Made by a program: the position numbers and the translations under genes | Notes under the pieces: generated by a model | The model's database searches: none | Seen by the model: the letters and a program-made list of their open reading frames with translations, nothing else | What the model was told of the DNA's origin: nothing | Assembly (NCBI GenBank): GCA_937883885.1 | Contig: CAKZXL010000397.1 | Location: 1-8,832, forward strand | Length of the DNA: 8,832 bases | Direction: 5' to 3' | Source of the DNA: an uncultured Aquincola sp. | GTDB lineage: Bacteria; Pseudomonadota; Gammaproteobacteria; Burkholderiales; Burkholderiaceae | Shown: one piece after another, positions 2 to 7,470 of the stretch | Position numbering within the stretch: the first letter of the stretch is position 1 | How the letters are laid out: each line of letters starts with the position of its first letter

Positions 2-103
2 TACAACACCGACTGCCAGCCGTTCAAGTGGACAGCCACCGCTGACTCGATCCTCCAAAAGCTGCATCGACTTTGCTCACGTATGAGTGGGACAGGACAC
101 TAG
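2..103 (+). mobile_element. IS630-family transposase, C-terminal fragment (5' end outside window)
   Basis: Reading from base 2 gives 33 codons, YNTDCQPFKWTATADSIL followed by QKLHRLCSRMSGTGH, ending at TAG 101-103. The pattern N-x(4)-PFxWT-x(2)-AD-x-IL-x(3)-x-R-x-C is the usual C-terminal tail of IS630/Tc1-mariner type DDE transposases, just after the last catalytic acidic residue. The catalytic core lies outside the window, so I cannot say whether the element is intact. No terminal inverted repeat can be identified at 104-158 without the other end. The family call rests on recognising the tail motif. It marks the left border of the accessory block and may have helped bring in or rearrange the two genes that follow. 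Confidence 0.8.
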
Positions 104-158: not shown

Positions 159-1910
159 TTGCCTTGGTCACCTCCTACCGACCACACCCGAATGACTGAT
201 GCGCTGAACGAAGGAAGTTGTGAGCCTGAGCTTGCGAGAATGATTTCCATCCTCCAGGCCGGAGACCGGGCGAGCTACGTGGCACTGATTCGGTCAGTGC
301 CGTACGAGGAGCGGGATCAATTGCTATGGCCCGCCGTGGGCGCGCAACACAGTGCCACGGTCAACTTGGTGGATGAGCTGGTCTTGTGGCCGAGCGACAA
401 GGCCAGCGAGGCCATGAACTACTTAGTCCCTGCAATCGGGCACGCACCGACCCTCTCACCAGTGGACGCTCGCAAGCTGCTGCATTTCGCACCATCCGTC
501 GGCTTGAGCTTCCTGCATCGTCTCGCAGAGAGTTTGAGCCCCCACTTCGCGCGAGACTTCGAGCTTGGAGCGCTTCTTGGATCAGAGCTGCAGGTCGAAG
601 CGCACTCCGAGGCGGAATACAGGGTCTGGGCGCAGGCACTCTGTTCCGCATCACCATTGCGCGCGCTGTCACTCGCGAGGTCAATGACCACTAGCGACCC
701 AGGCCAGGCGCGCGTCTTTTCGGCGATCTTGCAATACCTTCCGGTCCGCTTGGACGAAGTCGTTGCTGAAATCGCTACCCACGCCGAGGCGCTGATAGAG
801 CAGGCAGTGATTGCGGCCGCGGTCATCGGCGAGTTCGGCTGGTTCGGGATGTCTTCGCTAGCTCGGGTGTTGCCGGGTGCTGTCGTGCAGCTCACGGTAG
901 GCGCAAGCGCTGGCGAGCGTGGCGCTGTCCTGGCAGGCTGCGGCGTCTTGCAACTACGCTGGGAGGAAGGCCCCCGTCAGGATCTCGTGGAACTGGCGGA
1001 GGTGGTGGCCCAGGCAAGCCTTGCACACGCCAGCTACAGCGCCCCCGTTGGACGCGCGCTCTCCAGCATGCTCCACAACGACCAGACGCGTCCGGTGGGC
1101 GAACGCTGTCTCGAAAGGATGGGGACTTGCCAGACGCTCAATCCGGTCGAAAGCATGGAGGAAGCGTTCGACGCGCTTTGCGACTTCCCGGAGTCATTCG
1201 GAAACGTGCTGACTGCTTGGCTGCTGGCGCCAGGCATCTCCTTCAACGCCCTGCGCAGCCTGCTATCGAAGTGCGGTTCCGGTAGGGCGCCGGTGGTCTT
1301 GCAGATAGCCATGTTCCGAGCGGCGCCAGCGCCGCGGAAGCTGGCGGCGGGCCGGCGGCTTATGTCCCTCTGCATCAACGGGGAAGTCCTGTGTCAGTTT
1401 ATCGGCCTGCTGGCGGAGACCACTTCCCTTCAGCCGCACGGACTTCAGCTCGCCGAAGCACTGCTTAACCAGGCATTCATCGAGTATCCCAACGCCACCG
1501 TCGAGTTTCTCAAAGCGAACACGAGGCCCGACGCCAAGACGAAGCCGCATGCCTCCCTCTATCGAGTGGTACTGGCCAACGCACTTCGGTGGCAGCGGGT
1601 GCTAGCGCGCCTGCCGCGCCTGAAGGAACTTCGGCCCGACGATCAGAGAATGAGGGCGCTGCAATCGATGTACCGGCGCCGCAACGAAGAGATCATGCGG
1701 ATCGCACGCGAGCGCTCGGTGTTCGCTTCGCTCGCCACCCAGGTAAATGTTGCCCAGGGCCGCAAGTTCGCGACCCACCATGGCAGAGGTGCTCCCCAGG
1801 TCACCGAGATGGTCCAAACGCGACACTCAATGGAGTTGCCGTCGTCCGAACTCGCAGATCCGACCGGCGGTGCGCTCACGCGCTTGGCAACGCTCTCGGC
1901 GGCCCAGTGA
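159..1910 (+). CDS. Large, probably all-helical protein of unknown function; first gene of a two-gene module
   Basis: I do not recognise this 583-aa protein. It is rich in Leu/Ala amphipathic stretches throughout, such as the segments around residues 55-130 and 150-230, with no signal peptide, no membrane segment and no Walker or nuclease motif. I infer a cytoplasmic alpha-solenoid or scaffold. The C-terminus differs: a very basic helix (MYRRRNEEIMRIARERSVF, residues about 504-522) leads into a compact motif-like stretch, MELPSSELADPTGG (about 558-571), which looks like a conserved functional tail. The TTG start at 159 is chosen because GGAGAG (146-151) sits 7 nt upstream; the next in-frame ATG, at 192, has no Shine-Dalgarno sequence. 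Its stop overlaps the GTG start of the next gene (GTGA, 1907-1910), implying translational coupling and probably a shared function. GC is visibly lower than in the genes right of 6400, consistent with transfer. Confidence 0.8.
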   Translation: MPWSPPTDHTRMTDALNEGSCEPELARMISILQAGDRASYVALIRSVPYEERDQLLWPAVGAQHSATVNLVDELVLWPSDKASEAMNYLVPAIGHAPTLSPVDARKLLHFAPSVGLSFLHRLAESLSPHFARDFELGALLGSELQVEAHSEAEYRVWAQALCSASPLRALSLARSMTTSDPGQARVFSAILQYLPVRLDEVVAEIATHAEALIEQAVIAAAVIGEFGWFGMSSLARVLPGAVVQLTVGASAGERGAVLAGCGVLQLRWEEGPRQDLVELAEVVAQASLAHASYSAPVGRALSSMLHNDQTRPVGERCLERMGTCQTLNPVESMEEAFDALCDFPESFGNVLTAWLLAPGISFNALRSLLSKCGSGRAPVVLQIAMFRAAPAPRKLAAGRRLMSLCINGEVLCQFIGLLAETTSLQPHGLQLAEALLNQAFIEYPNATVEFLKANTRPDAKTKPHASLYRVVLANALRWQRVLARLPRLKELRPDDQRMRALQSMYRRRNEEIMRIARERSVFASLATQVNVAQGRKFATHHGRGAPQVTEMVQTRHSMELPSSELADPTGGALTRLATLSAAQ

Positions 1911-3619
1911 CCACCGGCAGCCTTCGCCTCCTCCTGGAGGATTTCCTCGGCCTCATGAAGGAAGAGGGCGAACTGGACTCGTTCTTACCACTCCTCTTCT
2001 CGTCGATGGGCCATGAGATCGTCTTCAGAGCACAGAAGGGTCCCAGGCAGTACGGTGTGGACATCGTCTCGGTCGGGAAGGATCCCGATGGTCGCAAGAA
2101 GCTCTTTTTGTGGCTGGTGAAGTGTGGCGACATCGGACGGCAGGAGTGGAACTCCGGCCCGCAGTCCGTCCGCCAGTCGATCGACGATGTCGGTGACGTG
2201 TACCTCGCATCACACATCAGTCCACAACACAAGTCGCTGCCGAAGAAGCTGATTGTGCTGACGAACGGCGACTACCTCTCCAGCATCAACCAAACTCTGG
2301 CGAGCTTTCTCAGCACCTGGGCAGCGCGCAATCAGGCAGAGGTGGACCAGATCAATGGGTCTTCGCTGGCTGCCCTTGTAGAGCGACATCTCCTCACCGA
2401 GTACGTCCTGCCAACTGGCGATCGCGCGCTGCTTCGCCGGATGCTTGCCAACGTGGGGACGCCGGAGCTGTCAGTGTCGGTCGGCAGGCAACTCGTGAAC
2501 AACCTGCTGGCTAAGGCGCGCACCCCGGCCAAGTCCAAGGGCGCCCATACTAAACAGGTTCTGACGGCACTTCGGGGCATTCGTACGTCGCTGAGCGTCT
2601 TGCTGTACTGGGCGCAAAACGAAGGCAATCTGCGCGCGCCGTACAGGCTGGCCGAGTACACCATCCTGGCCGTGTGGGGCGAATTCCATGGCGTACTGGG
2701 TCAGCGCAGTGATGTCTCGCAGGAGTTTGCGGAATTGCTGGCCCAGCTTACAGCCATCGCGGACGCGTTCCACCTCCGGCTTGAGCCCTACCATCAGACA
2801 CAGAACGCCATCGCCACGGTGCGCCCAGATAGCATCCTGGTGAGCGAGACGGTGTTCGAGGAACTGGGAAGACTAGGCTTGCAGGGATGCATCTGGGCAA
2901 GCCTGTCGGTCCAGGGACTCGGGGAGGTGGCGGCTGCGATGGCCGGCGTATACCGCGGTCGTCTCCGCGCCATTCTGGAAACTCACACCTGTTCGCGGTC
3001 GCCGACGTACGACCATCAGTCGGTAGACGTCCACGCTGCGCTGCTGCTCCTGCTTGCCGTTGGCGACAAGGATGTCGCCATGCAGTGGGTCGAAGAGATG
3101 GCTGTGCGCCTCGGATACGCGGTGAAGCATCGTCGGCACTGGCCGTTGAATGCGAGCTTCGATGAAGCGCTTGCCATCCACCACGAGAGCGAGGTCCCTG
3201 CTCTCGAGCACATGCGACACACGACCTTCGTGCCACTCCTGCTGTTGTGGACCGCAGTGCTGGGCATGGGCAAGGTCTACGAATTCCTCGTCACCGAAGT
3301 CGTCGCCAATCTGGGGTCGACAACGATGAACTTCTGGAGTCCTGAGCAGGACTTCGATGCAATCGTCGCCGATGGACGCACGCTTCAGGCGCACGGCGTT
3401 GGCGAAGGTTTCCTGCAGGTTCCCGCCAAGCCGTCGGAGTTCATCGCCCAGCTTGCCGCTCCTCTTGAAGGCGCGCAGCCGATAGCGAACTCGGCTTGGT
3501 ACCAATTCAGGGCGGCCTACATACCGCTTTTGGCGGGACTGTACTGGCGACTGCAGATTCCCAGGCAGATGCTTACGGAACAAGCGCTCGCGCTGGCGTC
3601 GCAGCCCAACGAGCGATAA
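1907..3619 (+). CDS. PD-(D/E)XK nuclease-like N-terminus fused to a long helical region; second gene of the module
   Basis: 570 aa from GTG 1907. The N-terminal ~110 residues look like a restriction-endonuclease fold: a helix (residues 6-34), then MGHEIVFRA-x(6)-YGVDIVSVG with D52, a short turn (KDPDGRKK), and the strand LFLWLVKCGDIGR with K72. This matches the GxD...xVKxGDI layout of Mrr/PD-(D/E)XK enzymes, but the position two before the lysine is L70 where D, E or Q is usual. It continues WNSGPQSVRQSIDDVGDVYLA and LPKKLIVLTNGD (about residues 81-126). The remainder (about 140-570) is mostly helical with no ATPase motif, and ends in the motif-like stretches NFWSPEQDFD (475-484) and WYQFRAAYIPLLAGLYWRLQIP (531-552). 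I infer nucleic-acid cleavage or binding in partnership with the preceding gene, perhaps in phage or plasmid defence. The frame is also open upstream to 1589, but that stretch lies inside the first gene and reads as low-complexity shadow. ATG 1955 would cut off the first helix. Confidence 0.78.
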   Translation: MTTGSLRLLLEDFLGLMKEEGELDSFLPLLFSSMGHEIVFRAQKGPRQYGVDIVSVGKDPDGRKKLFLWLVKCGDIGRQEWNSGPQSVRQSIDDVGDVYLASHISPQHKSLPKKLIVLTNGDYLSSINQTLASFLSTWAARNQAEVDQINGSSLAALVERHLLTEYVLPTGDRALLRRMLANVGTPELSVSVGRQLVNNLLAKARTPAKSKGAHTKQVLTALRGIRTSLSVLLYWAQNEGNLRAPYRLAEYTILAVWGEFHGVLGQRSDVSQEFAELLAQLTAIADAFHLRLEPYHQTQNAIATVRPDSILVSETVFEELGRLGLQGCIWASLSVQGLGEVAAAMAGVYRGRLRAILETHTCSRSPTYDHQSVDVHAALLLLLAVGDKDVAMQWVEEMAVRLGYAVKHRRHWPLNASFDEALAIHHESEVPALEHMRHTTFVPLLLLWTAVLGMGKVYEFLVTEVVANLGSTTMNFWSPEQDFDAIVADGRTLQAHGVGEGFLQVPAKPSEFIAQLAAPLEGAQPIANSAWYQFRAAYIPLLAGLYWRLQIPRQMLTEQALALASQPNER

Positions 3620-3867: not shown

Positions 3868-4119
3868 ATGGGCACCACAGGCAGCAACGCTCATCGCGTG
3901 CCGTGAGGCAAAGGCAAGATCGTCGGGCAAAAGGCTCCGTTCAAGCTCAAGGACACCTGGGCGCTTTGCGTCCGATCCAAGAACCTTGGCGCCGCCAAGT
4001 TGCTGCTGGGCCATTCCAAGCTGGAGTCGACCGTCCGATACCTTTGCATCGAGGTTGATGACGCTGGCCACGCACGCAAGGCGGACGTTGTCAGATGCAA
4101 CGGCTGCTGCCCGGCGTGA
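3868..4119 (+). pseudogene. Decayed tyrosine recombinase/integrase remnant with premature stop and internal deletion
   Basis: From ATG 3868 the frame reads MGTTGSNAHRVP, TGA (3904-3906), then GKGKIVGQKAPFKLKDTWAL, CVR, SKNLGAAKLLLGHSKLESTV, RYLCIEVDDA, ending at TGA 4117-4119. The second half is the signature C-terminal box of tyrosine recombinases: LLGHSKLESTVRYL contains the LGH motif and the catalytic Tyr of the RYL sequence. The first half, GQKAPFKLKDTWALCVR, resembles the N-terminus of the short (~190-aa) proteobacterial integrases. Those proteins normally have well over 100 residues between these segments, including the catalytic Arg and HxxR, so an in-frame internal deletion has joined the two ends. 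The premature TGA is one base from CGA (Arg). After VDDA the sequence departs from the usual short tail, suggesting a further frameshift. It cannot encode an active enzyme and marks the right side of the accessory block. Confidence 0.72.
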
Positions 4120-4301
4120 TGCCGGACTCACGCAGACGGCCAAAGGAGGGCACTGCCAACCGGCTGCTATGCGGCCCCCGACCACTGGCGAGCGCACTCC
4201 ACTGTCGCATGGGGGCAAATTGACTGCCCGCAGCGCCCTTTCGAGAAATGGGATTCTCGTATCCTTGCGAACTGTACAAATCAGACACAGTTTCCTCGCT
4301 C
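4120..4301 (+). other. Region upstream of the lipoprotein gene; small hairpin, no clear promoter
   Basis: No gene is supported here. A perfect 6-bp inverted repeat, CGAGAA (4242-4247) and TTCTCG (4254-4259) with a 6-nt loop, encloses the alternative ATG at 4248. TTGACT at 4220-4225 resembles a -35 box, but no -10 partner is evident. The lipoprotein promoter is presumably here but cannot be pinpointed. Confidence 0.4.
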
Positions 4302-6350
4302 ATGCTCCGCTCCCGCCTGTCCTGCCTATTGCTTGCCACCATCCTGTCCGCATGTGGCGGTGGCGGTGGCGGTGGCGGTGGCGGCGGCGGTGGTGGCGGG
4401 GGGGACAGCGGTGGTGGCGGTGGTGGCTCGGCCGGCCCCAGCCCCAGCGCAAGTACGGGACTTGTGCCCAGCGCCCCAGCGGCGGGTGCCACGCTCTATG
4501 CGGATGCAGCAGCCCTGCGCCCGTTGATCGACGGTGCCCGCTGGCAGTACCGCGGCGTGGAGAAGGCCGCTGACGGCAGCACGACCATCCGCTACACAGC
4601 CTCCGTCAGTCAGAAGTCGCTGGGCGGCAGTTGGGAGGAAACCGATAGCCAGGGCTTCCTGGGCGAGGACGAAATCACGACGATTGCGCTGAGCAGCGGA
4701 AGCATAGTCGCCCAGGTCAAGGACCCGCTCGGCGTCGGAAGCAGCGAGGTCGTCGCGATCACGGAGCTGCGCTCGCCGGTACGGGTGAATGACCAGTACA
4801 CGCAGTACGAGCGCAGCGACCTGTCGACGGGTACCGACGTCGATGGTGATGGCAAGGTCGACCTTGCCGACGTCGCCATCTATACGCGCGTCATCGGCAG
4901 CGAAGACGTGGAACTGCCGGAGTTGGCCCGGACGGTGACAGCCGTGAAGGTGGAGACAACGGCCCTGGTACGCGTCAAGAGGTCGTCGACCGGCGCGGCG
5001 CTACCCGTCAGCAACCTGGTGCAGACCCAGTGGTACGTCGCGGGCGTCGGCGTGGTGCGTCGCAGTCTCAGCGCGGCTTCGACCACCGGTAGCGTCGGGC
5101 CGCTCGCCTACGACGAGCTGCTGTTCAGCTGGGACGGTGTCACGCAGGGGCTGGGCGCGTTGGGCCCGACGGCGGCGAGCGTGCCGAACTCGCCGACCTT
5201 CGCGTTGCTGCCCGACACGCTTGCGGCGACAACGCTGGGCGACCGCGCGCTGGTGCTGGCGGGCAGCCGTCAGGCCACCAACCCGGGCGCTCTGACTTTC
5301 GGCGTCTTAGACAAGCGTGGCGTCTTGCAGTCGACTGTTCAGGTGACGGGCCTGGGCGACTCGCTCTACAACTTCAGCCCACCGAGTCTCTTTGGTGTGG
5401 ATGCGAACACCGCGCTGCTGGTCATGCCGGTGGGTACGAGCCCGGGGACGCTGAAGTTGCAGCGGGTCGATGCCGGTGGTGCCCTGCTGGGCAGCTCGAG
5501 CACGATCACGTTGGCGACGCTCAATGCGTTCGTGCCGACGGCCTGGGATGGTCAGGCGCTGTGGGTTGCATGGCTCAACTCCGCTAGCCAAGTCAGCGAC
5601 TCTGGCAAGCTCATGCTGCAACCCTTCGGACTTGATGGTCAGCCGTTGGCGGCGGCCCAGGTGCTGGACGCGCCTGCCATGAGCGGCCAGATCCTCAGCG
5701 TGGGTCTGAGCGCCGCCGCTGGCCGTGTGCTGGTGACCTGGGCGGACGCAGAATTTGGCGGGACCACCTACCGCTACGCCTTGGTCGCGGGTAGCGCCGG
5801 CAGGGCCGACGTGCATACGCTTGGCATGGCACAGAGGTATTCCGGCTCGCAGCCGACCGTGGTGCCAACGCTGGGCAGCGGCGTTGCCGCGTTGCAGTGG
5901 GATGGACCCGTGTTCACGTTCAACGGTACCGGCCCGCTGCCCGACTCTCTGCCGCGCGCCATCTTGCTGGACGCGAGCGGAAACCCTCTGCGCAGCAGTT
6001 CGGGCAGCCTGGATGACGAGCAGCTTCCCGCCGCCTGGGTTGGCGTCAACACGCCGGTGCTGGCGCAGGCACTTAGCGACCGGTTGGTCATCAGCAGCTT
6101 TGCCTACCAGCGGACGGTACCTCAATTCATCAGCCCCAGCGACTTCATCCTCACGACCTTTGTTCAGCCAGGCAGCCGTCCGCTGGCAACGGCTGCGCCC
6201 TCGGCGACCAGTCTCGCGGCCGCAAGCGGAACCTCAACCAACTTCGACCGATTCGGCCTACCCGCCTTCGTGCTGCTGTGGGATGACCGCGCGCTGGTCA
6301 TTGGCAACAACTCCGGGCGAACGATGACCAGCGTGTTCTGGTTGCGCTGA
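4302..6350 (+). CDS. Outer-membrane lipoprotein with poly-Gly linker, unknown function
   Basis: 682 aa from ATG 4302. MLRSRLSCLLLATILSAC is a short type II signal peptide: Arg-rich n-region, hydrophobic core and lipobox LSAC with Cys18 as the lipidated residue. Gly at +2 does not signal inner-membrane retention, so outer-membrane anchoring is likely. Sixteen Gly, Asp-Ser and six more Gly follow directly, forming a flexible tether. Residues about 70-250 form an extracytoplasmic domain (LRPLIDGARWQYRG near the start, QWYVAGVGVVRR at 243-254). It contains DVDGDGKVDLAD (179-190), a dockerin/EF-hand-like calcium loop. The remaining ~420 residues are Gly/Ala/Ser/Leu-rich with repeated short beta-strand-like stretches (e.g. 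VLVTWADA, GVAALQWDG), perhaps a beta-propeller or beta-sandwich; this is inference. ATG 4248 is also in frame but would put 18 extra residues before the signal peptide. Neither start has a good Shine-Dalgarno sequence. I do not recognise a named family. Confidence 0.85.
   Translation: MLRSRLSCLLLATILSACGGGGGGGGGGGGGGGGDSGGGGGGSAGPSPSASTGLVPSAPAAGATLYADAAALRPLIDGARWQYRGVEKAADGSTTIRYTASVSQKSLGGSWEETDSQGFLGEDEITTIALSSGSIVAQVKDPLGVGSSEVVAITELRSPVRVNDQYTQYERSDLSTGTDVDGDGKVDLADVAIYTRVIGSEDVELPELARTVTAVKVETTALVRVKRSSTGAALPVSNLVQTQWYVAGVGVVRRSLSAASTTGSVGPLAYDELLFSWDGVTQGLGALGPTAASVPNSPTFALLPDTLAATTLGDRALVLAGSRQATNPGALTFGVLDKRGVLQSTVQVTGLGDSLYNFSPPSLFGVDANTALLVMPVGTSPGTLKLQRVDAGGALLGSSSTITLATLNAFVPTAWDGQALWVAWLNSASQVSDSGKLMLQPFGLDGQPLAAAQVLDAPAMSGQILSVGLSAAAGRVLVTWADAEFGGTTYRYALVAGSAGRADVHTLGMAQRYSGSQPTVVPTLGSGVAALQWDGPVFTFNGTGPLPDSLPRAILLDASGNPLRSSSGSLDDEQLPAAWVGVNTPVLAQALSDRLVISSFAYQRTVPQFISPSDFILTTFVQPGSRPLATAAPSATSLAAASGTSTNFDRFGLPAFVLLWDDRALVIGNNSGRTMTSVFWLR
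4356..4427 (+). repeat. GGC/GGT/GGG low-complexity tract encoding poly-Gly
   Basis: 24 codons encode Gly16-Asp-Ser-Gly6. The first part (4356-4382) is a perfect alternation of GGC and GGT, a 6-bp tandem repeat prone to slippage. Changes in units of 6 bp would only vary linker length; changes of other sizes would shift the frame just after the lipobox. Confidence 0.85.
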
Positions 6351-6447: not shown

Positions 6448-6903
6448 TTACTTCGCCGGCATGATCACCGCATCAATCACGTGGATCACGCCGTTGCTGG
6501 CCGCGATGTCGGTCTTCACGACATTGGCCTTGTCCACCTTCACGCCGCCGGTGGTGCTGACGGTCAGCTCGGAGCCTTCCACGGTCTTCACCTTGCCGGC
6601 CTTGACGTCGGCGGCCATGACCTTGCCGGGCACCACGTGGTAAGTCAGCACCTTGGTCAGCGCGGCCTTGTCCTTGAGCAGCGCGTCGAGCTGGGCCTTG
6701 GGCACCTTGGCGAAGGCTTCGTCGGTGGGCGCGAACACGGTGAACGGGCCCGGGCCCTTCAGCGTGTCGACCAGGCCGGCGGCCTTGACGGCGGTGACCA
6801 GGGTGTTGAACTGGCCGGCTGAGGCGGCGGTGTCGACGATGTCGGCGGCCATGGCGGTCATGGCACCCACGCTCAGGGCGGCGGCAATCAGCATCTTCTT
6901 CAT
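6448..6903 (-). CDS. Secreted fasciclin (FAS1) domain protein
   Basis: 151 aa, the usual size of single-domain bacterial FAS1 proteins. [21 protein letters not shown] is a Sec signal peptide with an AxA cleavage site (AMA, residues 17-19), so the product is periplasmic or secreted. The FAS1 landmarks are in order: [14 protein letters not shown] (H1 box, FTVFAPT at 54-60), [10 protein letters not shown] (86-95, the conserved YH motif) and [13 protein letters not shown] (H2 box, about 137-149). FAS1 domains typically mediate cell-surface or matrix adhesion; the bacterial role is poorly defined. AGAAGGAA (6911-6918 on the plus strand, as its complement) is a good ribosome binding site. It lies 51 nt downstream of a second FAS1 gene on the same strand, probably as one operon. 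Confidence 0.95.
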
Positions 6904-6954
6904 GGTGGTCTTCCTTCTGGTTTCAGGGGTTGGTGAGGGAGAAAAACAGCGGGG

Positions 6955-7470
6955 TCACACTGCAGGCAGCAGTACCTTGTCGATGGCGTGGATCACGCCA
7001 TTGGTGATCTCGATGTCGGTGGCCACGATGGCGCTGCGGCGGCCGCGGCCGTCGGTGATGACCAGGTCGCTGCCGACGGTGAAGGTGCCGCCCTGCAGCG
7101 TGGTGATGGGCGTGCCCACCGGCACCTGCGCCTTCAACACCTTGCCGGCCAGCACGTGGTAGGTGAGCACGGTGGTCAGCAGCGGCTTGTTGGCCAGCAG
7201 CGCTTCCTTGGTGGTGCCCAGTTCGGTGAGCAGCGCCGCGAAGGCGGCATTGGTGGGCGCAAACACGGTGAACGGACCGGTGCCGCTGAGGGTGGCGGTC
7301 AGGTCGGCGGCCACCACAGCCTCCACCAGGATGCTGAAGTCGGGGCGGCTCTGCGCCTCTTGCACGATGTTGCGGTCGTGGTCGTCGTCGTCATTGCCGC
7401 AGGCGGCCAGCAGCGAGGTGCCGGCGCCCAGGGTCGCGGCCAGCAACAAGGAACGTCTTCTGAACTGCAT
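6955..7470 (-). CDS. Fasciclin (FAS1) domain lipoprotein
   Basis: 171 aa. The signal MQFRRRSLLLAATLGAGTSL runs into LAAC, giving a lipobox with Cys24. GNDDDDHD follows; Gly at +2 argues for the outer membrane, and the acidic stretch probably forms the tether. One FAS1 domain covers about residues 44-171, with [14 protein letters not shown] (FTVFAPT at 67-73), LTYHVLAGKV (101-110) and NGVIHAIDKVLLP (157-169). It shares all three boxes with the neighbouring secreted FAS1 protein but differs elsewhere, so the two are old paralogues. GGGAG lies 6 nt upstream of the ATG. It is the promoter-proximal gene of the pair and is divergent from the tetR gene across a 144-bp intergenic region, which suggests, but does not prove, control by that regulator. 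Confidence 0.95.
   Translation of the reverse strand: MQFRRRSLLLAATLGAGTSLLAACGNDDDDHDRNIVQEAQSRPDFSILVEAVVAADLTATLSGTGPFTVFAPTNAAFAALLTELGTTKEALLANKPLLTTVLTYHVLAGKVLKAQVPVGTPITTLQGGTFTVGSDLVITDGRGRRSAIVATDIEITNGVIHAIDKVLLPAV

Follow-up and report, generated by a model that had tools for sequence, protein, structure and literature searches.

The DNA analysed here (the window) comprises positions 1 to 8,832 of contig CAKZXL010000397.1 from an uncultured Aquincola sp. (assembly GCA_937883885.1). Toward its left end, two large genes lie one behind the other on the forward strand (Table 1), and sequence comparisons suggest that they are probably a divergent operon of Olokun, an antiphage defense system, whose second protein, OloB, carries an Mrr-like nuclease effector. 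A sequence-only reading of the same DNA had described two large genes coupled by a GTGA overlap; the two open reading frames (ORFs) are indeed intact, and the overlap is located where the first gene stops and the second starts. That reading had placed the first start at TTG 159, which is possible and less likely than ATG 192. The latter is the probable oloA start because the homologue P0123, 94% identical to the window OloA, opens with the same MTDALNEGS.

Table 1. Features of the oloA-oloB locus and its immediate flanks (window positions)
Feature	Position	Strand	Remarks
oloA-like gene	192..1910	+	572 amino acids, intact ORF, ATG start
oloB-like gene	1907..3619	+	570 amino acids, intact ORF, GTG start inside the oloA stop
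GTGA stop/start overlap coupling oloA and oloB	1907..1910	+	Read from the sequence
OloA residues 315-572, the better conserved C-terminal half	1134..1907	+	Only part that the OloA model recognizes
Mrr_cat-like PD-(D/E)XK domain of OloB, residues 19-159	1961..2383	+	hhalign versus Mrr_cat
E19 and E22 codons	1961..1963 and 1970..1972	+	Just before D24
D24 codon	1976..1978	+	Aligned with the helix-A Glu of Mrr
D52 codon (GVD)	2060..2062	+	Aligned with the GxD aspartate of Mrr
K72 codon	2120..2122	+	Aligned with the K of QxK in Mrr; residue 70 is L
IS630-family transposase gene, 3' end	2..103	+	33 codons plus stop, truncated at the window edge
Tyrosine recombinase, C-terminus remnant	about 3922..4113	+	tblastn versus plasmids

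Olokun was reportedly described by Millman and colleagues in 2022. In the accessible portions of later papers, the system is attributed to reference 7 of PMC10121019, called not thoroughly characterized (PMC12592470), entered in a table with its mechanism as unknown (PMC12926258), located in a Pseudomonas island hotspot (PMC12629846), and reported in Enterobacter and Escherichia coli (PMC10121019 and PMC12592470). Within this accessible literature, to which the original description does not belong, no statement presents OloB as an Mrr-like nuclease. The new part of the present analysis is a mechanism proposal centered on the OloB head, the system itself having been described already.

Both proteins are matched by the PADLOC models of Olokun. 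The OloB model (PDLC03926) aligns with the second protein over residues 7 to 556, spanning model positions 2 to 550 of 556 (328.4 bits; E = 2.7e-98), and the OloA model (PDLC03925) aligns with residues 315 to 565 only of the first (model positions 332 to 587 of 596; 88.3 bits; E = 1.8e-25). The same models match all 22 aligned OloBs and all 15 aligned OloAs, the window included, and the OloA of locus L001, which is 25% identical to that of the window, is recognized over residues 47 to 563. The locus thus holds an OloB protein, an OloA protein (through its C-terminal half), and an oloA directly upstream of oloB on the same strand. As in Olokun, the two genes are ordered A-B with overlapping ends, and relatives of the pair sit in defense islands and on mobile elements. 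The module had been put forward as undescribed in the sequence-only reading, which does not hold, since both genes match models of a described system. The window pair differs from Olokun in that its OloB beyond the head is 18 to 22% identical to compared members outside the window's clade, the N-terminal half of its OloA escapes the OloA model, and Pfam finds no adjoining defense gene.

Several results weigh against this identification. The Olokun label rests on PADLOC models that stand in for the experimentally tested OloA and OloB. No other defense gene was found in the window by Pfam, PADLOC not having been run on the right-hand genes. Searches of both proteins against Pfam, NCBIfam, PHROGs, and PDB sequences returned nothing usable; for OloB, the best matches in Pfam, NCBIfam, and solved structures had E values of about 0.02 to 0.03 and unrelated names. 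Profile matches of both proteins to solved structures (E values of 0.03 to 1.8) were judged to be due to chance and set aside. Finally, the PADLOC Olokun models are less specific than their E values suggest because they also match a second gene pair, found in genome G487 (171.8 bits for OloB and 78.4 bits for OloA).

The G487 pair (L020, 1387 to 4300; also L031 and L100) consists of overlapping genes for proteins of 496 and 481 amino acids. It shares gene order, overlap, and matches to both Olokun models with the window family and differs in having no detectable sequence relation to it by BLAST, our own hidden Markov models (HMMs), or hhalign. By eye, a canonical-looking D...ELK motif can be made out close to the C terminus of the second protein. 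Either the PADLOC models mix two families or the G487 pair is a separate look-alike module. One could then ask whether it is the window family that forms a separate two-gene defense system, caught by broad models, with the published Olokun being another family; the fact that both models reach the unrelated pair speaks for this, as does the recognition of the window OloA over its C-terminal half only. We consider it improbable. Members of the window family score as high as 688 bits with the OloB model (556 positions), and the window OloB is itself matched over nearly its full length. The G487 type seems rare: it was found in 1 of 249 genomes (its own, with none in the other 248), on no viral contig, and on plasmids in one record, with a match over 25%. 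Because of the 688-bit members and because the G487 type was not found again, we take the window family as the core of the PADLOC model. Furthermore, the family occurs in Klebsiella, Enterobacter hormaechei, and E. coli, which fits the published Olokun in Enterobacter and E. coli as far as the accessible text of those reports goes.

To evaluate pairing, we used 25 distinct loci from genomes, plasmids, and viral contigs (L001, L003 to L010, L022 to L030, L032 to L036, L042, and L043), part of which also went into the OloA and OloB profiles that scored the pairing. Nested or repeated loci (L002, L011 to L019, L037 to L041, L044, and L112 to L116) were left out, as were the unrelated pair (L020, L031, and L100), a fragment (L021 and L045), and the later loci L109 to L111. 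A gene matching the OloA profile lies upstream of OloB on the same strand in 25/25 loci and overlaps it in 24, usually through an ATGA or GTGA junction, so that adjacency of the two homologues, raised in the sequence-only reading as a check, is borne out. In the remaining locus, from Tolypothrix, an ISAs1 transposase lies between OloA and OloB. One of the 24 overlapping OloAs, on a Burkholderia ubonensis plasmid, is a remnant only; this locus (L005, 3979 to 9039) was counted despite its decayed state, with an OloA of 142 amino acids and an OloB broken by IS3. Immediately upstream of the remnant are a nucleotidyltransferase gene and another that matches a 2TM effector model of CBASS (cyclic oligonucleotide-based antiphage signaling system). 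At L109 to L111 (two E. coli chromosomes and one Enterobacter plasmid), an annotated 903-bp gene overlaps OloB by 4 bases.

The neighborhoods of the family are rich in defense genes. At eight loci, neighboring proteins match 129 PADLOC families (E value of 1e-5), compared with 2 in control stretches of the same contigs; the number counts families and not proteins, and many of the families are near duplicates. This comparison covered 109 flanking and 125 control proteins, called by a simple longest-ORF rule, at 8 of the 12 wide-flank whole-genome loci (L022 to L031, L042, and L043), with L028 (a 7-kb contig without a control), L031 (no OloA or OloB of the family), L025, and L026 excluded. Among the 25 of 129 families listed are AriA, AbiLi, MADS proteins, HEC-01, SoFic, and type II methyltransferases. 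Annotated plasmid neighbors include a CD-NTase and ThiF in Sulfitobacter, a NACHT NTPase in Tolypothrix, and a helicase and a methyltransferase in Photobacterium. The enrichment near defense genes proposed as a check was thus observed, and a likely defense role, which had been put forward on layout, gains from it and from the PADLOC matches of both proteins.

At least 143 OloB relatives and at least 5 OloA relatives (P0123 to P0127) were found among 5.8 billion proteins; the searches scored only the 7,994 candidates sharing the most words, and 120 of the 143 OloB relatives were listed. A further search with an OloA alignment, again with 7,994 candidates scored, gave the 5 proteins and no new OloA. 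Where close relatives are named, they are mostly betaproteobacteria; among the matches listed, named OloB relatives include Candidatus Accumulibacter, Duganella, Paraburkholderia, Deefgea, Rugosibacter, Roseateles, and a Pseudomonas. Distant OloB members are present on 34 plasmid records (19 from Klebsiella and one from a cyanobacterium), the OloB family is found on six viral contigs, and one subtype with a short OloA occurs in 2 of 5,426 E. coli genomes. The DNA of three other family members had no match in E. coli genomes, and no OloB was found in the phage collection at an E value of 1e-5. Across the taxonomic ranks of the relative G001, the family was detected in 4/399 genomes of the order, 3/392 of the family, and 9/398 of the phylum; these sets overlap, each contains G001, and the phylum count takes in G487 (the unrelated pair) and G621 (a fragment). 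This sparse distribution, together with the varied replicons and the defense-rich neighborhoods, makes it very unlikely that the pair serves housekeeping or element maintenance, for instance as a helper of mobile element recombination, instead of defense, a role that its position between transposase and recombinase remnants could otherwise suggest.

Some individual loci of the family deserve mention. The E. coli chromosomal loci L109 (3033 to 10579) and L111 (5599 to 10579) both have a CHAT-domain gene 110 bp upstream of their short OloA-OloB pair, and at L109 it is preceded by an AAA ATPase gene. In genome G621 (L021 and L045), an OloA N-terminal piece (profile positions 15 to 239) is directly followed by an OloB piece (profile positions 516 to 560). 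In Undibacterium umbellatum (L001 and L041/L044), OloB is apparently split over two contig ends, with an internal stop in the second piece, and is possibly interrupted by a repeated element.

The N-terminal head of OloB was compared with known nuclease families by profile alignment. A profile of residues 1 to 175 from 81 OloB sequences aligns with Mrr_cat (PF04471; profile built from 26 of 30 fetched loci, leaving out L058, which has an internal stop, and the weak L069 to L071) at a probability of 83.2% (E = 8.8e-6; score, 37.1). None of 300 column-shuffled controls reached this score (best, 21.2). When 15 further blocks taken from the two proteins were aligned with Mrr_cat, one that overlaps the head came out best, also at 21.2, and the others scored 18.1 or less. 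A profile of 20 OloBs outside the window's clade aligned in the same register (77.8%; score, 35.1). The alignment continues to the C-terminal end of the domain, and the first-helix acidic residue, the GxD motif, the lysine, and a C-terminal "TNGD ... NGSxLA" block are all in register between Mrr_cat and OloB. The differences are that the Q of QxK is replaced in OloB, that OloB has insertions after the K strand, and that it adds about 400 residues and a partner gene.

Residue conservation was read from a table of 25 rows: the window, the pairs P0125 with P0004 and P0127 with P0005 (each presumed to be partners because their contigs are equally long), and 22 of the loci (without L005, L006, and L026). 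E19, E22, D24, D52, K72, and R78 are identical in 25/25 OloBs and G74 in 24/25; D52 and K72 are also identical in two other alignments (69/69 and 22/22 sequences). The PD-(D/E)XK-like N terminus of the sequence-only reading, with D52, K72, and GDIGR, is in place and now accompanied by the Mrr_cat match; the acidic or Q residue expected before the lysine is missing. Residue 70, two positions before K72, is L, V, I, S, or T in 25/25 sequences and L, V, or S in 69/69.

On the other side of the balance for the Mrr-like nuclease stand the following results. No aligned OloB has D, E, or Q two residues before K72, and the site may consequently be inactive. The head of the window-clade alignment alone (A3) aligned with Mrr_cat at 42.9% and a score of 29.0. 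Single OloB sequences scored 18.3 to 31.2 against Mrr_cat, with the window's own at 24.7; two of 234 unrelated single proteins outscored the latter (best decoy, 27.8). Of 20 other OloBs scored singly, only 2 exceeded that decoy. As single sequences score weakly, the Mrr claim is carried by the profile and not by any one sequence. Alignments of the head with Cap4 nuclease (0.1%; profile from 3/3 fetched loci) and with Mrr_cat_2 (0.9%; profile from 6/10 fetched loci) failed. As a reference, Mrr_cat itself aligned with Mrr_cat_2 at 98.3% and with Cap4 at only 0.7%, so that the Cap4 failure says little and the Mrr_cat_2 failure counts somewhat against the Mrr assignment.

A PD-(D/E)XK, Mrr_cat-like fold of the OloB head is thus supported by sequence; DNA cutting by OloB is predicted from the likeness, and we describe the head as resembling this fold without filing it as a proven active member. 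The lost residue before the lysine could also mean that Olokun has a catalytically dead Mrr-like head that binds DNA or scaffolds a complex, with the toxic or blocking activity located elsewhere, e.g., in OloA or toward the C terminus of OloB. This seems unlikely to us, if less so than the alternatives above, as D24, D52, K72, and R78 are invariant and a mere binding domain need not keep the D and the K. Among the four parts compared (the two halves of OloA, the OloB head, and the rest of OloB), moreover, conservation is highest in the head, and the ligand that is missing could come from the acidic cluster E19/E22/D24 in helix A.

Beyond the head, OloB appears to be of mixed character: past residue 200, a crude propensity profile gives 29 to 50% helix and 16 to 27% strand. 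The motif-like tail noted at first sight is a family feature in part. W477 of NFWSP is kept in 24/25 OloBs and P479 in 23/25. For WYQFRAAYIPLLA, conservation is seen mostly within the window's clade; A543 is present in 20/25.

OloA evolves differently in its two halves. In all 21 pairs that have it, the N-terminal half has the lowest identity to the window among the four compared parts. Identities to the window in the OloA N-terminal half, the OloA C-terminal half, and the OloB head are 32%, 62%, and 70% for P0127; 15%, 26%, and 60% for L042; and 11%, 19%, and 39% for L043. Three loci (L004 and L007, both on Klebsiella plasmids, and L030 of genome G571) have OloAs of 300 amino acids that lack the N-terminal half and align with the C-terminal half of the OloA profile only. 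A fast-evolving, sometimes absent N-terminal half is what one would expect if it were a sensor exposed to phage triggers that change. The idea that a new upstream sensor gene accompanies the short OloAs was dropped, the upstream genes of L007, L030, and L109 being mutually unrelated. In composition, the first 290 residues of the window OloA are acidic (19 K/R and 33 D/E) and the last 100 are basic (17 K/R and 10 D/E), the latter in agreement with the basic C terminus reported from sequence alone. A crude propensity profile gives 36 to 54% helix per block. OloA profile matches include a designed helical-repeat protein (E = 0.29) and an alpha-Rep (E = 0.82), which fit helical repeats and prove nothing; the same holds for one HEAT_2 match (E = 0.1) among 15 OloAs.

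On both sides, the cassette is bordered by remnants of mobile elements, consistent with the scar suggested earlier and here identified by tblastn against plasmids. The left piece matches 56 plasmid records (best, 87.9% identity over 33/33 amino acids to annotated IS630 transposases). The right piece matches 322, of which 3 span at least 80% of it; the matches are mostly partial in length, and some are annotated as integrase or tyrosine-type recombinase. Pfam gave chance-level matches only for the two short pieces. The gene pair is also set apart by composition, as had been remarked: GC content is 0.631 in oloA and 0.612 in oloB versus 0.660 to 0.701 in five genes to the right, and GC at third codon positions is 0.736 and 0.755 versus 0.800 to 0.934. 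Only short, imperfect direct repeats flanking the cassette were found, and promoter and terminator scans of the locus gave nothing informative. An empty-site search via the right-hand lipoprotein gene matched 25/250 genomes and found no adequate relative; among the matches listed, alignments spanned at most about 215 of 700 residues.

To the right of the recombinase remnant lies a gene for a lipoprotein-like product, for which Pfam gives no clear match. It is followed by two genes with fasciclin domains, a TetR regulator, a gene of a polyhydroxyalkanoate (PHA)-granule region, and what appears to be the terminal part of an AcrB-type transporter (24.7 bits, under the Pfam cutoff of 28). In the putative lipoprotein (4248 to 6350), a polyglycine run encoded by a long GGT/GGC-type simple repeat (4350 to 4420) sits just after a lipobox-like cysteine. 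The fasciclin genes (6448 to 7470, reverse strand) each have a single domain and are arranged in tandem.

How might an Olokun operon of this kind work? Within a complex of the two proteins, OloA would sense infection with its N-terminal half, through a phage product or altered DNA, and contact OloB with its C-terminal half. The Mrr-like head of OloB would then cut DNA, either that of the phage or all DNA of the cell, the latter amounting to abortive infection. We tentatively propose, as one possible model that we hold with much less confidence than the reading as Olokun with a nuclease effector, that Olokun is a sensor-nuclease machine. Its nuclease may be of the Mrr type with a relocated acidic ligand, in which E19/E22/D24 of helix A replace the residue before the lysine; its sensor, the N-terminal half of OloA, may be swapped or lost from lineage to lineage, leaving a single conserved core of OloA C terminus and OloB that is triggered in different ways.

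For the family, the divergent members indicate that Olokun-like pairs extend beyond what the OloA model recognizes in full. The invariant head residues and the variable N-terminal half of OloA, for their part, turn an entry of "mechanism unknown" into tests by point mutation and domain deletion.

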